A stretch of 64,000 bases of DNA, taken from Rhizomicrobium palustre (GTDB lineage Bacteria > Pseudomonadota > Alphaproteobacteria > Micropepsales > Micropepsaceae). The stretch spans positions 2,170,139 to 2,234,138 of the forward strand of contig NZ_JAASRM010000001.1 in the NCBI RefSeq assembly GCF_011761565.1. Reading direction: 5' to 3'. The notes beneath the pieces are model-generated. The model searched no databases and was not told where the DNA came from. It was given only the letters and a program-made list of their open reading frames with translations. Below are positions 18,874 to 25,751 of the stretch, one piece after another. Every line of letters starts with the position of its first letter. The stretch's first letter is position 1. Both the position numbers and the translations under genes were made by a program.

Positions 18874-21785
18874 ATGACCAGCCAAAGCTCCCCAGAACGG
18901 ATTTCCCGGGCGTCCAACGCCATCTTCGAGGAAACCGCCTTCCTATTCGGCGGCAATGCCGAATTTGTCGAATCCCTTTACGCCCAATATCTGGACGACC
19001 CAAACTCGGTCGATCCCTCCTGGGCGCGGTATTTCGCCGGGCTGGAGGGGCCAACCGGTCCGTCTTCTCCCTCTTGGGCACAGCGCGCGCAAGATTCCGG
19101 CGCGGTGGCGGCAAGCCCTGGCGGCAAGGCCTCGGCTGAGGATGTGCGCCTCGCTGCCCAGCAGTCGGTGCGGATGATCCAGTTGGTGCGCGCCTATCGC
19201 GTCCTCGGTCATTTCGCGGCGGATCTCGATCCGCTCAAGCTTTCCGAAAAGGCGCCGGTTCCGCAGCTCGATCCCAAATTCCACGGCTTCAAAGAGTCAG
19301 ATCTCGATACGCCGGTTTTCATGGACGGCGTCTTGGGCCTGCAATCGGCAACGCCGCGTGAAGTCGCTTCGCGGCTCCAGCGCATCTATTGCGGCCGCAT
19401 CGGCTATGAGTTCACCCATATCCATGATGCCGAACAGAAGGATTGGCTGCAGCGTCGCATCGAAGGCCCCGAGATGGAGGTGCATTTCACCCCCGCGGGC
19501 AAGCGCGCCATCTTGAACAAGCTGATCGAGGCGGAAGGCTTCGAGAAGTTCTGCGCCCTGCGCTTCCTCGGCACCAAGCGTTTCGGTCTGGACGGCGGCG
19601 AGGCGATGATGCCTGCGCTGGAACAGATCATTAAGCGCGGCGGCCAGCTCGGCGTGAAGGACATCGTCATCGGCATGGCCCATCGCGGCCGCCTCAATGT
19701 GCTCGCCAATCTTCTCGCCAAGCCCTATCGCCAGATCTTCCACGAATTCCGTGGCGGCTCGGCCAATCCTATCGGGCTCGAAGTTTCGGGCGACGTGAAG
19801 TACCACCTCGGCGCCTCCTCGGATCGCGATTTCGACGGCAATCTGGTCCATCTGTCGCTGACCCCGAACCCGTCGCATTTGGAAGCCGCGGACCCGGTGG
19901 TACTCGGCAAGGCGCGCGCCAAGCAGACCCGCAACAACGACACCCAGGTCCGTTCCAGCGTGCTGCCCATGCTGCTGCATGGCGATGCGGCCTTCGCGGG
20001 CCAGGGCATTGTCGCTGAATGCTTCGCCATGTCGGGCATCAAGGGCTATCGCACCGGTGGCACCATTCATTTCGTTATCAACAACCAGATCGGTTTCACC
20101 ACCTCGCCGCAATTCTCGCGCTCGTCGAGCTATTGCACCGATATAGCCTTGATGGTGCAGGCCCCGATCTTCCACGTGAATGGCGATGATCCCGAAGCGG
20201 TAGTGCATGTCGCGCGCATCGCCACCGAGTTCCGCCAGCTCTTCCACAAGGACGTCGTGATCGACATGTACTGCTATCGCAGGTTCGGTCACAACGAGAC
20301 GGACGAGCCGTCCTTCACCCAGCCGCTGATGTATCGCGCCATCAAGGATCATCCCTCGACGCTGGAACTCTACGCCCAGAAGCTGGTCTCGGAATCGACC
20401 ATGGCCCAAGGTGAAGTCCAGCATATGGTGGATGACTTCAACAAACGCCTGGATGATGAGTTCGAAGCCTCCAAATCCCATGTGCCTGACCGAGCCGACT
20501 GGCTGTCGAGCTATTGGCTGGGTTTCGAGCAGGCGCCAAAATCCTATAAGCGCGGCGAGACCGGGGTCGATAAATACGCCCTGCTCGATGTCGGCAAAAC
20601 GCTCTCCACGATCCCCGAAGGCTTTAACGCCCATAAGACCATCGTGCGCCAGATGCAGAACAAAGCGCGCATGTTCGAGACGGGCGAGGGCATTGATTGG
20701 GCGACCGCCGAAGCGCTCGCTTTCGGCACGCTGGTGCGCGAAGGCACGCCGGTGCGCCTCTCGGGCCAGGATTGCGGCCGTGGCACCTTCTCTCAGCGCC
20801 ATTCGGTGCTGGTCGATCAGGATACGGAAAACCGTTATATCCCGCTCGCCAATATCTCCAAGGATCAGGCCGAGTTCGAGGTGATCGACTCGCTGCTTTC
20901 GGAAAATGCCGTGCTCGGTTTCGAATATGGCTATTCCACCGCCGAGCCGCGCGCGCTGGTGCTCTGGGAAGCCCAATTCGGCGACTTCGCCAATGGCGCC
21001 CAAGTGCTGATCGATCAGTTCATCGCTTCCGGTGAAATGAAATGGCTGCGCATGTCGGGCCTCGTGATGCTTCTGCCGCATGGCTATGAAGGCCAGGGGC
21101 CGGAACATTCCTCCGCTCGTCTGGAGCGCTATCTGCAACTCTCCGCGCAGGATAATTGGCAGGTCTGCAATCCGACCACGCCCGCCAACTATTTCCATGT
21201 GCTGCGCCGCCAGATCGTACGTCCTTTCAGGAAGCCCTTGATCCTGATGACGCCGAAATCCTTGCTGCGCCACAAGCGCTGCGTCTCGTTCCTCTCCGAT
21301 CTCGAAACCGGCACCAGCTTCCACCGTGTCTTCCGCGATCAGGCCGAATGCGTGCCCGGCGCCACCACGGTGCAGCTCGCGCCCGACGATCAGATCAAGC
21401 GGGTGATCCTGTGCTCCGGCAAGGTCTATTTCGACCTCATGGAAGCGCGCGAGAAATATAACGAGCCGCATGTCCAGATGCTGCGGTTGGAACAGCTCTA
21501 TCCTTTCCCGGAAGGTCCCTTGGGCCAGGAGCTGGAGCGCTTCCCGAACGCCGAAATCGTGTGGGTGCAGGAAGAACCGCGCAATCAGGGCGCCTGGTTC
21601 TTCGTGCGTCACCGAATCGAGTATCTTATGGAAAAGCTGGGGCGGCGCGTGCGTCCGCGGTACATCGGGCGGCCTGAATACGCCTCCACGGCGGCCGGTC
21701 TGATGAGTCAACATACAGCCGAACTGCAGTACATTATGGAAGAAGCCATGCGGTTCGATCTCAAAATCCGTATCGAGGACGAGCA

Positions 21786-21789
<4 letters not shown>
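18874..21789 (+). CDS. sucA: 2-oxoglutarate dehydrogenase E1 component
   Basis: A 971-residue thiamine-diphosphate enzyme that decarboxylates 2-oxoglutarate in the TCA cycle. It has the N-terminal [28 protein letters not shown] segment that docks E1 to the complex, [14 protein letters not shown] near residue 268, [13 protein letters not shown] near 370, [12 protein letters not shown] near 433 (ThDP/Mg binding), [21 protein letters not shown] near 735 and a C-terminal [15 protein letters not shown]. The length is normal. The last four bases overlap sucB (ATGA). Confidence 0.97.
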
Positions 21790-23039
<1,250 letters not shown>

Positions 23040-23157: not shown

Positions 23158-23877
23158 CTATGGCGCCCAATGCGCTAGCGCCACTTGCGTCAACGCGGCC
23201 ACCAACAGCCCCCAGCCGAAGCTCAGGAAGGTGCCGATGATGATGTATTCGGTGAGCTTACGCTGCGCCGATTCCTTCACATCGCCAAAGCGCAGGATGG
23301 ATTTGGCGGTGATGAGAAAGCCCACCCCTGCGGGCTGATTGATCAGCATCAGAAGCATTACCAGGGCACGTTCCAGACAGCCGATATAGGTGCCGCCATG
23401 GGAAAGGCCCTGAATCTCCTGGCCGATTTCAGTAACGAACGGCGCCGTGATCTTCTTGATGAGGATGGCGCCGGTATGAAGGCTTAAAATGGTTCCGGCG
23501 ATCAGGCATAAAAGGGCTTGATAGTGCGAAAGCCAATCTTGGCGCGCCCAGAAGCCATTGGCGAAAGCATCAGGATAAAGAAAGCCAAGCCCCAAGATCA
23601 CCGCCAGGTGCACGAATTGGTCGATCAGGAAACTCGCCAGCGTATCCTTTAAGACATGCACTTTCAGCGCATCCATGACGAGATGCGTACCCGCCAAAAT
23701 CGCCAGAAGCGGCCAGGGCGCTGCACCCAGAACAAGAATGGCCGCCGCGATAACAATGGCGATGTGCAGAAGAAGATAGAGCGGGTTTTTCTTTCGCCGT
23801 AACAGCCATTCACCCTGCGCCGGAAAATCCGCAATCAGATGCGCCGCGACCAGCGCCAGAAGCGTGTCCGCCATCAT
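23158..23877 (-). CDS. DUF3307 membrane protein
   Basis: A 239-residue polytopic membrane protein (about six helices). Its helices carry conserved-looking polar residues: His13-x3-Asp17-x3-Gln21, His37, His64-x3-Asp68 and Asp85-Gln86-x2-His89. Such repeated His/Asp pairs inside helices suggest a metal site or an intramembrane hydrolase rather than a simple transporter, but DUF3307 has no established activity. The ATG at 23877 overlaps the satD stop (ATGA) and lies just after GGAAGG, so translation is coupled to SatD. The longer ORF start at 23916 is rejected. Confidence 0.83.
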   Translation of the reverse strand: MMADTLLALVAAHLIADFPAQGEWLLRRKKNPLYLLLHIAIVIAAAILVLGAAPWPLLAILAGTHLVMDALKVHVLKDTLASFLIDQFVHLAVILGLGFLYPDAFANGFWARQDWLSHYQALLCLIAGTILSLHTGAILIKKITAPFVTEIGQEIQGLSHGGTYIGCLERALVMLLMLINQPAGVGFLITAKSILRFGDVKESAQRKLTEYIIIGTFLSFGWGLLVAALTQVALAHWAP

Positions 23878-24578
23878 GCGTATCCTTCCTGCCGAGGCGC
23901 TGCAATGTGCTGCCAATTCGTCCGGGCAAACAGTTCCAAGGCTTCTCGCAGTGCAGGCAGGTTGGCGCTTGAGAGAACATCCCCGACCGACTGAACGGTG
24001 ATCCCGAGATTATCGGAGATTTTCTCATAAGTCGGCATGGGGAGCAGCAGCCAAAGCCGCATTACCTCGGCTTGGCGGCGGGACCATTTGCGCGAGAGGC
24101 GGCTACAAAGGTGCAAGATGGCCGGAAACCAAAGTGCGAAGGTCTCGTCGCCGTTGTCGGACAGGGCACCCGTAAGCCGGTCGGCCCCGCTCATCTCCTC
24201 AAGCGCCCGTCCCGACAGAGTGAACGCTTCCCCGGTTGAGATGGCGGAGGTTTGCTCGATGCTCTCGATACTTCCGATGCCTATCGACGTTCTGGTTTCG
24301 GCATTGGCTTCTACAAGCAGGCTTGCCTGGATAAGCAGGGCCAAGCGCAGCGCATTGGATGGGTCGCCCAGCAGAACCTGCCAGGAATCGCCCTGAAAGA
24401 ATTCGGCGCCGCGCGTAATAGGGTCGTTACGCAGAACAAAGGCGCGAACAGTCTCGCGAACGGAGTCTTGGACGCTCTGCCGCACGCGCGCCATTGCAGC
24501 CGGCTTGAGTTTGGTCGAGCCAACTATATCGCCGGTAAGAACGGCGTGGACCTTGGGCGCGGCAGCTCTTTTGGGCAC
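23874..24578 (-). CDS. SatD-like protein: cyclase-fold domain plus C-terminal helix-turn-helix
   Basis: A 234-residue protein with a GTG start. The first ~130 residues follow the class III nucleotidyl cyclase pattern: VLTGDIVGST (Asp17), FFQGDSWQVLLGDPSNALRLALLIQ (Asp64), SIGIGSI near 99 and GEAFTLSGRALEEM near 116. Asp17 and Asp64 stand where cyclases bind metal. Residues ~166-205 (RRQAEVMRLWLLLPMPTYEKISDNLGITVQSVGDVL) look like a sigma-region-4/LuxR-type HTH. I recognise the SatD family from Gram-positive annotations, where its function is unknown. It forms a two-gene unit with DUF3307, under a promoter overlaid by palindromes. It may act as an autoregulator, a nucleotide sensor or a cyclase; this is undecided. 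Confidence 0.75.
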   Translation of the reverse strand: MPKRAAAPKVHAVLTGDIVGSTKLKPAAMARVRQSVQDSVRETVRAFVLRNDPITRGAEFFQGDSWQVLLGDPSNALRLALLIQASLLVEANAETRTSIGIGSIESIEQTSAISTGEAFTLSGRALEEMSGADRLTGALSDNGDETFALWFPAILHLCSRLSRKWSRRQAEVMRLWLLLPMPTYEKISDNLGITVQSVGDVLSSANLPALREALELFARTNWQHIAAPRQEGYA

Positions 24579-24580
24579 AT

Positions 24581-24629
24581 AATTTCAGGCAAAAACGCCT
24601 GAAATTTATATTTCAGGCGGAAATGCCTG
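24581..24629. promoter_or_regulatory. Tandem palindromic operators of the satD promoter
   Basis: Operator 1 (24581-24606): AATTTCAGGC/GCCTGAAATT, 10-bp perfect arms, 6-base spacer. Operator 2 (24614-24629): CAGGC/GCCTG, the same 6-base spacer, with the TTT of TTTCAGGC conserved on one side. The centres are 28 bp apart. Operator 2 fills the -35/-10 spacer; operator 1 covers the -10 end and the predicted start site. The layout is that of a repressor-controlled promoter. Confidence 0.75.
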
Positions 24630-24633
24630 TCAA
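24605..24633 (-). promoter_or_regulatory. Near-consensus sigma70 promoter of satD-DUF3307
   Basis: On the minus strand: TTGACA (24633-24628), 17-base spacer, TATAAA (24610-24605). The expected start is near 24598, about 20 bases before the GTG, with no clear ribosome-binding site between. Confidence 0.8.
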
Positions 24634-24648
24634 ATGGCATGCCTCAGC

Positions 24649-24676
24649 AAAAAGGCCCGGTTTCCCGGGCCTTTTT
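24649..24676. terminator. Bidirectional terminator
   Basis: A perfect 12-bp stem AAAAAGGCCCGG/CCGGGCCTTTTT with a TTTC loop. On the minus strand it ends the GH62 gene and insulates the satD promoter immediately downstream. Confidence 0.9.
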
Positions 24677-24698: not shown

Positions 24699-25751
24699 CT
24701 ATTTCTTCGCCGCGCACAAGCCGAGGTCGGGCTGTTTGGTGGCGGTCAGCAGCGACAGGCGATAGGGCAGTTTCAGGTAGTTCTTCTCGGGCGCATTGGG
24801 CTCCAGCGCCTGATAAAGGAATTGCAGCGGCTTGCAGAAATCGACTTCCGGCGTCTGGTCGGCGTTAGTGCGGATCAGCTCACCATGCGAGACGCCTTCC
24901 GAACTTGGCGCGCCGTCGAAGCGCACATTCAGCGCGCTGGCAAAGGCGTCGTCCAGCTTCGCCGCCAAGGGCTTCCATTCGCTATCAAGCTTATCCAGCG
25001 TCCAGGAGCGGAAATAGCGCCCTTTCGGCCCCATCGCTTCCACTGCGGCAAGGTATTTTTCCGTGCCTTTGATCTTATAGATCATCGCCGCTTCAAAAAG
25101 GTCCGCCTTGTTGGGCTCGGCGGCGGCGATCACCGTCTCCTTGTCATAGCCATTGGGAAAATCGGCGAGCGTCGTTTTGGAGCGGAAGATGTGGCCGTTA
25201 TCATCGGCGCCGAAAAGATAGCAATTCTTCTCGTCGCAGATGTTCCAGAAATCCAGCCAATAGCCTTTACCAATGGCGTCCTTCACCGTGTCGGGCATTT
25301 TGGAGAAGAAGGTTTTTGGCGCGCTCCACGACATCGGGTCATCGATATTGCTGGTGGTGGAATACATCGCACCATTGCCTTGATAGACGAGATACCAAAG
25401 CTTCTGCGGCGCGAAATAGAAAACCTGCGGCGCGCAATGATAGCCCGGGCCAATCTTGCTGGTGTTGAGATAGGTGATCGGCGCGTCGTTCGCCTTCGCC
25501 CAATCGGTGAAGCTCAAATAGGCCATCTCCCAGCCGCCTTTCTCCGAGGGCGTGGTGGCGAAGACATGGAATTTGCCGTTCGCGAAAACCACCGTGGGGT
25601 CCTTCAGCGCCAGCGAGGCATGGGCTGCGTCCGGCTTGGGCAGGATCAGCGGCGCGGTGGATTTCCATTGGAACTGGCCATCCTCCGCGGCGAAGGCGGG
25701 CAGGGCGGTAAGGGCGAGAAAGGCGCAACAGGCCAGGCGCGAACGGAGCAT
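24699..25751 (-). CDS. Glycoside hydrolase family 62 alpha-L-arabinofuranosidase
   Basis: A 350-residue secreted enzyme with a signal peptide (cleavage likely after AFAA, residue 22). It reads as a full GH62 domain: LKDPTVVFANGKFHVFATT with Asp51, MAYLSFTDW, GYHCAPQVFYFAPQKLWYLVYQG near 104, GYWLDFWNICD with Asp167, SKTTLADFPNG, KADLFEAAMIYKIKG with Glu220, RYFRSWTLDKLDSEW and SHGELIR. Asp51, Glu220 and Asp167 match the general base, general acid and pKa-modulating residues of the five-bladed propeller. The family removes arabinose side chains from arabinoxylan by inversion. It has no carbohydrate-binding module and no neighbouring hemicellulase genes. GH62 is known mainly from fungi and actinomycetes. 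Confidence 0.9.
   Translation of the reverse strand: MLRSRLACCAFLALTALPAFAAEDGQFQWKSTAPLILPKPDAAHASLALKDPTVVFANGKFHVFATTPSEKGGWEMAYLSFTDWAKANDAPITYLNTSKIGPGYHCAPQVFYFAPQKLWYLVYQGNGAMYSTTSNIDDPMSWSAPKTFFSKMPDTVKDAIGKGYWLDFWNICDEKNCYLFGADDNGHIFRSKTTLADFPNGYDKETVIAAAEPNKADLFEAAMIYKIKGTEKYLAAVEAMGPKGRYFRSWTLDKLDSEWKPLAAKLDDAFASALNVRFDGAPSSEGVSHGELIRTNADQTPEVDFCKPLQFLYQALEPNAPEKNYLKLPYRLSLLTATKQPDLGLCAAKK

Follow-up and report, generated by a model that had tools for sequence, protein, structure and literature searches.

A SatD-like gene and its membrane-protein partner under a palindrome array: a candidate autoregulated two-gene module from Rhizomicrobium palustre and other prokaryotes

What might a cyclase-fold protein with a DNA-binding tail do beside a membrane protein, when both are assigned to families (Pfam SatD, PF16264, and DUF3307, PF11750) that are uncharacterised? 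The question arises from a stretch of 64,000 nucleotides of the Rhizomicrobium palustre genome, here called the window, in which two genes lie on the minus strand between sucAB (18874-23039, plus strand) and a GH62 gene (24699-25751). The original prediction described a SatD-like protein with a class III cyclase pattern and a helix-turn-helix (HTH), joined by an ATGA overlap to a six-helix, His/Asp-rich DUF3307 membrane protein, and proposed a nucleotide-sensing or nucleotide-making regulator with a membrane effector or hydrolase. Both reading frames and their overlap are real and the observation as a whole was confirmed. The interpretation was supported in part: the fold, the Asp residues and the adjacency of the genes were borne out, whereas nucleotide-making and hydrolase activity were not. 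It had left out a conserved C-terminal module of the membrane protein (residues 162-219; the C-module) and a promoter/operator array (24582-24633), which is new here. Given the terminator hairpin of the GH62 gene upstream and a promoter of its own, the pair probably constitutes a separate transcription unit (Table 1).

Table 1. Features of the gene pair and its upstream region, in window coordinates
Feature	Position	Strand	Remarks
SatD-like gene	24578..23874	-	GTG start, 234 aa; class III nucleotidyl-cyclase palm and C-terminal HTH
Palm domain	24162..24551	-	residues ~10-139; invariant metal-type Asp17 and Asp64 (GDIxxS ... RGDxWQ)
HTH	23961..24092	-	residues ~163-206; recognition helix residues 195-204
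ATGA stop/start overlap	23874..23877	-	couples the SatD-like and membrane protein genes
DUF3307 membrane protein gene	23877..23158	-	ATG start, 239 aa
N-terminal DUF3307 domain	23542..23877	-	residues ~1-112; optional in the wider family
Key residues of the DUF3307 domain			H13, D17, Q21, K29, H38, H65, D69, K72, D86, Q87, H90
C-terminal three-helix module (C-module)	23203..23406	-	residues ~158-225; obligatory SatD partner
Palindrome O1	24610..24633	.	ATTTCAGGC-GGAAAT-GCCTGTCAA; spans -35 and spacer, touches -10
Palindrome O2	24582..24605	.	ATTTCAGGC-AAAAAC-GCCTGAAAT; from -10 to a few bp before the GTG
Sigma70-like promoter	24633..24605	-	TTGACA-17-TATAAA; 11/12 consensus matches, within the array
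Intrinsic-terminator hairpin	24649..24676	-	AAAAAGGCCCGG/CCGGGCCTTTTT; 3' of the upstream GH62 gene

The AF2 model of the SatD-like protein, built from 88 aligned sequences, reached a pLDDT of 93.8 and a pTM of 0.91. Comparison with the PDB by Foldseek returned a class III nucleotidyl cyclase as every top match. These included Ma1120 (4wp9, E = 2e-5), the Pycsar cUMP synthase (7r65, E = 2.4e-4) and Rv1900c, and the Cas10-type Cmr2 (4doz) was also among the structural matches. A sequence profile of the family likewise matched Ma1120 (E = 4.5e-6), with Asp17 and Asp64 aligned with the two Asp motifs of the cyclase. In the model, three helices (167-178, 184-191 and 195-204) form the HTH that had been predicted to follow the cyclase domain. 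The original prediction had named two outcomes as counting against it, a structure lacking the palm and both Asp residues not conserved in homologues. The palm was modelled, and Asp17 and Asp64, together with Gln67, are invariant in 101 of 101 homologues; Ser21 is kept in 100 and Arg62 is mostly conserved.

We then asked how far the resemblance to the class III cyclases extends. With Ma1120, Rv1900c and Pycsar PycC the SatD-like protein shares the palm fold, the DIxxS and GDx(W/F) Asp motifs and the R-x-x-(I/V)-(G/A)-x-G strand. It differs from them by its added C-terminal DNA-binding HTH, by Gln67 and Arg62, which are features of the SatD-like family, and by the Asn/Arg pair, which is not conserved. 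With columns assigned by motif and not by structure superposition, the position of the transition-state Asn (column 120) holds V, T, I or R, and that of the transition-state Arg (column 124) holds Arg in only 41 of the 101 homologues. Thus, among the hallmarks of class III cyclases, the palm fold and the two metal-binding Asp residues are present and Asn-x3-Arg is not. Since the Asn and Arg positions are not conserved, the SatD-like protein, with its cyclase fold and metal site, probably does something other than canonical cyclase chemistry, and the suggested nucleotide-making activity was not established.

The name SatD has to be read with similar care. Single-sequence scans against Pfam, NCBIfam and PADLOC gave nothing for the window protein, Pfam SatD did not match it at E<1, and a Pfam SatD search of the window's own genome found no match. 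In the same alignment, 38 of 94 relatives do match Pfam SatD (best 1.7e-12). The assignment was therefore upheld for relatives and not for the window protein itself, and the label "SatD-like" holds by profile only. In the open-access sources searched, literature naming a SatD protein consisted of annotation or expression data only.

The AF2 model of the membrane protein (pLDDT 95.8) is all-helical, with nine to ten helical segments in place of the six predicted. Its His/Asp-rich character stood: H13-x3-D17, H38, H65-x3-D69 and D86-Q87-x2-H90 are 96-100% conserved. Pfam DUF3307 matches the protein at 47.9 bits against a cut-off of 23, and the match is confined to the N-terminal half (residues 19-109 of the 252-aa TTG-start form), so the DUF3307 assignment holds for that half. 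No Pfam model matches the C-module, in which G162, I165, G166, E169, R170, K192, R196, E210, G215 and S219 are invariant in 101 of 101 sequences and Y211 is kept in 99. The loop charges suggest that the conserved residues of the DUF3307 domain face the cytoplasm; for the C-module they leave the topology ambiguous. A search of the PDB with the model returned no fold match, so the proposed identity as a metal hydrolase is unsupported, and no recognisable nucleotide-binding domain was found in the protein. One mobile group (L096-L100, L133 and L134) carries a longer membrane protein of about 310-356 aa with an extra central insert.

These features bear on an alternative modelled on Pycsar and Panoptes, in which the palm would synthesise a nucleotide, cyclic or linear, as the signal that turns the membrane protein on or keeps it off, the HTH serving only to autoregulate the operon. 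In its favour are the class III palm and its two invariant metal Asp residues, the Pycsar and Cas10-type structures among the matches and the position of the pair next to a Pycsar operon on one plasmid. The two-gene layout of synthase and membrane effector also recalls Panoptes (PMC12657218). Against it stand the variable Asn and Arg positions, the fact that the membrane protein shows no recognisable domain for binding nucleotides, and the PADLOC results: the 2023 defence models matched neither window protein, and among relatives they gave scattered weak matches of 1-3 members each, none of them consistent. For the effector families of these systems (2TM-beta or the Pycsar TM effector) there was likewise no PADLOC effector match and no PDB fold match. 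Compared with Pycsar, the pair shares the class III cyclase fold and the presence of a membrane protein, but the catalytic residues are not conserved, an HTH is present and the membrane protein is unrelated. Panoptes (OptSE, mCpol plus 2TM-beta), in the available text of two reports (PMC12657218, PMC12657230), shares the compact operon with a palm-fold protein followed by a membrane protein. Its palm, however, is Cas10-type and of a different family, its OptE has a soluble nucleotide-binding beta-barrel that the membrane protein here lacks, and that text describes neither an HTH nor an operator array. We regard a Pycsar- or Panoptes-like system as doubtful.

To assess whether the two genes belong together, we examined their association across genomes. 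The SatD-like gene lies directly upstream of the membrane gene, on the same strand, in 80 of 80 loci from many phyla, a set that comes from a membrane-protein scan with one genome per species and is biased to pairs by its seeding with paired proteins. Among 298 Pseudomonadota genomes, SatD-like genes occur in 15, each time with a C-module alongside. DUF3307-profile matches occur in 28 of the 298; ten of these match in the N-terminal domain only and none of the ten has SatD, whereas 15 of the 18 with a C-module do. In 198 Bacteroidota genomes, 44 of 46 full-length DUF3307 matches have an adjacent SatD, as counted by hand. Rare adjacency elsewhere had been named as grounds for rejecting the prediction; the two genes are in fact seldom apart. 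Furthermore, the two proteins diverge together (r = 0.83, reached in 0 of 1000 permutations).

The Bacteroidota also contain 14 divergent SatDs without a DUF3307-profile match, of which we inspected seven. Six are followed by a protein of 106-112 aa that is a C-module alone; the seventh (L152) has lost both Asp residues and has neither a membrane partner nor a palindrome array. C-module-only partners also accompany SatD-like copies in Agrobacterium, Sphingomonas and further Pseudomonadota. Together with the N-terminal DUF3307 proteins in SatD-less genomes, these partners point to SatD-like protein plus C-module as the core pair, with DUF3307 an optional fusion and not the obligatory partner. 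The Pfam models for SatD and DUF3307 do not cover the C-module, which by this reasoning is the real partner of SatD. Stand-alone N-terminal DUF3307 proteins were seen at loci L123-L132 in genomes without SatD. The Ralstonia jumbo phage RsoM2USA encodes a 134-aa DUF3307 protein, ORF187 (PMC8504454), short enough for the N-terminal domain alone; this annotation was the only mention of DUF3307 in the open-access literature searched.

At the suf locus of three Rhodobacteraceae genomes (L117, L118 and L119), SatD has been lost and the membrane gene kept. All 11 N-terminal residues are intact in these proteins, and Arg196, Glu210 and Tyr211 of the C-module are gone. Their loss in the absence of SatD suggests that the C-module is under selection only alongside SatD, or is harmful without it.

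Upstream of the operon, loci carry two to six palindromes whose centres are 28-29 bp apart; in the window, the centre of O2 is 28 bp from that of O1. The window array was equalled in 0 of 500 shuffles and in 4 of 492 control windows. Its promoter, scored by script, lies inside the array, covered by O1 and abutting O2, and 0 of 50 shuffles gave one as good; a scanner demanding T as the last base of the -10 element had missed TATAAA. Across loci, the array beats 15 of 15 shuffles in 71 of 102 (6.4 expected). The 133 spacings are 28 bp (62), 29 bp (56), 30 bp (9) or other (6), so that 118 are 28 or 29 bp, and when any period of 15-50 bp was allowed, 51 of 58 strong repeats still fell at 28-29 bp. 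Outside the discovery set the array was found in 7 of 8 and 6 of 7 loci (13 of 15), including a haloarchaeal plasmid; it is missing from Fusobacterium L143 and from L152, the degenerate SatD without a partner. In about 30% of loci the scanned stretch contained no significant array, and uncertainty about the start codon may account for some of these. Sigma70-like promoters were not significant at the loci in most other Proteobacteria, and Bacteroidota-type promoters were found in 7 of 32 loci (0.7 expected). Palindromes placed over a promoter would be a textbook layout for repression.

Which protein reads the array? The operator half-sites vary by lineage and track the recognition helix of SatD (partial Mantel r = 0.21 after removal of similarity in the palm and the rest of the C-terminus; 0 of 2000 permutations). 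In distant pairs, some of the strongest covariation with the half-sites is at columns 195, 196 and 200 of the recognition helix. Similarity between operators goes with similarity of the palm as well (partial r = 0.38), so part of the covariation is due to shared ancestry. Based on these patterns, the SatD-like protein likely represses its own operon through the array. The alternative is that another factor reads the array, or that it acts as RNA hairpins, with the SatD HTH directed at something else. The link between SatD and array does rest on covariation, and a terminator-like hairpin followed by TTTTT lies between O1 and O2 (24596-24619, minus strand), where it could block read-through into the operon. 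The array is nevertheless kept in groups as far apart as Bacteroidota and a haloarchaeon, and its half-sites, which differ between lineages, follow the recognition helix; in the window's genome the only perfect operator copy is at this operon. Moreover, a transcript from the window promoter would not carry O1, because that promoter lies inside the array. Another reader, or action as RNA hairpins, is highly improbable. With one perfect site genome-wide, a regulon beyond the operon is unsupported. A copy with one mismatch is present elsewhere (G000:C1:2779876-2779897, L145) and may be a second target or a chance hairpin.

A putatively autorepressing upstream gene invites comparison with type II toxin-antitoxin systems. 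In common with them, the locus has a putative DNA-binding upstream gene and palindromes over its own promoter, seen here as HTH, array and predicted promoter (with autorepression inferred), as well as overlapping genes and carriage on small plasmids and prophages. It departs from them in that the regulator has an enzyme-like palm and the partner is a polytopic membrane protein. The altered C-modules of SatD-less copies are compatible with a second gene that is toxic alone and neutralised by the first.

The distribution of the pair is patchy. None of the 18 relatives sampled in its genus has the window copy, which clusters with copies found on a Sphingomonas plasmid and in Calditrichota and Acidobacteriota, suggesting that it was acquired by transfer. 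In E. coli and Klebsiella, a mobilizable plasmid of 3,770 bp has the pair as its main cargo; complete E. coli genomes contained no pEC34A-like copy. Lambdoid prophages in IMG/VR also carry the pair, close to tail-fibre genes, the CII/O region or an integrase, and a search of a phage collection gave no match. Nearby genes on plasmids include Pycsar, TIR and two genes for an AAA-ATPase and a helicase that resemble Gabija by annotation only, and on a Sphingomonas insulae plasmid the SatD-like pair sits side by side with a Pycsar operon. Most other neighbours are ordinary or housekeeping genes, and few of 140 match PADLOC models (a raw count with no background rate). No conserved third gene was found among the 140. 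DUF4365 genes flank the pair on two unrelated plasmids, one from E. kobei (L133) and the Agrobacterium pAt (L140). A fixed position at the suf locus, common to 33 Rhodobacteraceae loci, speaks against a role in defence that is mobile only. The stress or defence layout originally proposed is accordingly no more than suggested, with mobile elements and defence neighbours at several loci in its favour and ordinary neighbours at most loci against it; a defence role is plausible.

The same data can be set against a reading without any conflict role, in which a nucleotide-responsive repressor tunes a membrane transporter or a lipid/phosphate enzyme in a housekeeping operon for stress or envelope homeostasis. 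The fixed suf position, the mostly ordinary neighbours and the occurrence of the N-terminal DUF3307 domain alone without SatD would fit such an operon. Its presence in only 15 of 298 Pseudomonadota, its absence from the sampled relatives in the genus, its carriage by a 3.8-kb plasmid and prophages and the cross-phylum placement of the window copy would not, and we consider a housekeeping operon unlikely.

The reading we prefer, to which we give roughly even odds (about 0.5), is a self-contained autoregulated module in which a nucleotide-sensing regulator controls a membrane effector. The SatD-like protein, probably a dimer by analogy with class III cyclases, would bind the palindrome array through its HTH and repress the operon; of the steps proposed, this is the most strongly inferred. 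Judging from the fold and the invariant Asp residues, the palm would take up a Mg-nucleotide as ligand, and whether that ligand is bound or lost would determine the state of the protein for binding DNA and its partner. The SatD-like protein may also govern the membrane protein through the C-module (Arg196/Glu210/Tyr211), with the DUF3307 domain as a fused accessory that can stand alone and is possibly a membrane metal/phosphate enzyme. More speculatively, a nucleotide signal disturbed by phage infection or stress would lift both repression and restraint, and the membrane protein would act. The overall logic would be that of a DNA-binding antitoxin or guard paired with a membrane effector. Only tentatively do we extend this to a class of undescribed nucleotide-gated guard modules of bacteria and archaea, carried on small plasmids and prophages, in which a class III cyclase-fold autorepressor-controller, acting on a 29-bp palindromic array, and a membrane effector of novel fold serve anti-phage or exclusion functions.

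The SatD-like/C-module pair forms a two-gene module not described before, which is spread across the bacteria and also occurs in an archaeon. It brings SatD and DUF3307, two widespread families of unknown function, together in a single system that has a common cis-element, a defined core partner in the C-module and testable residues. If the proposed mechanism is true, the pair would link gene expression and membrane action to nucleotide state in a new way, perhaps as part of phage defence.
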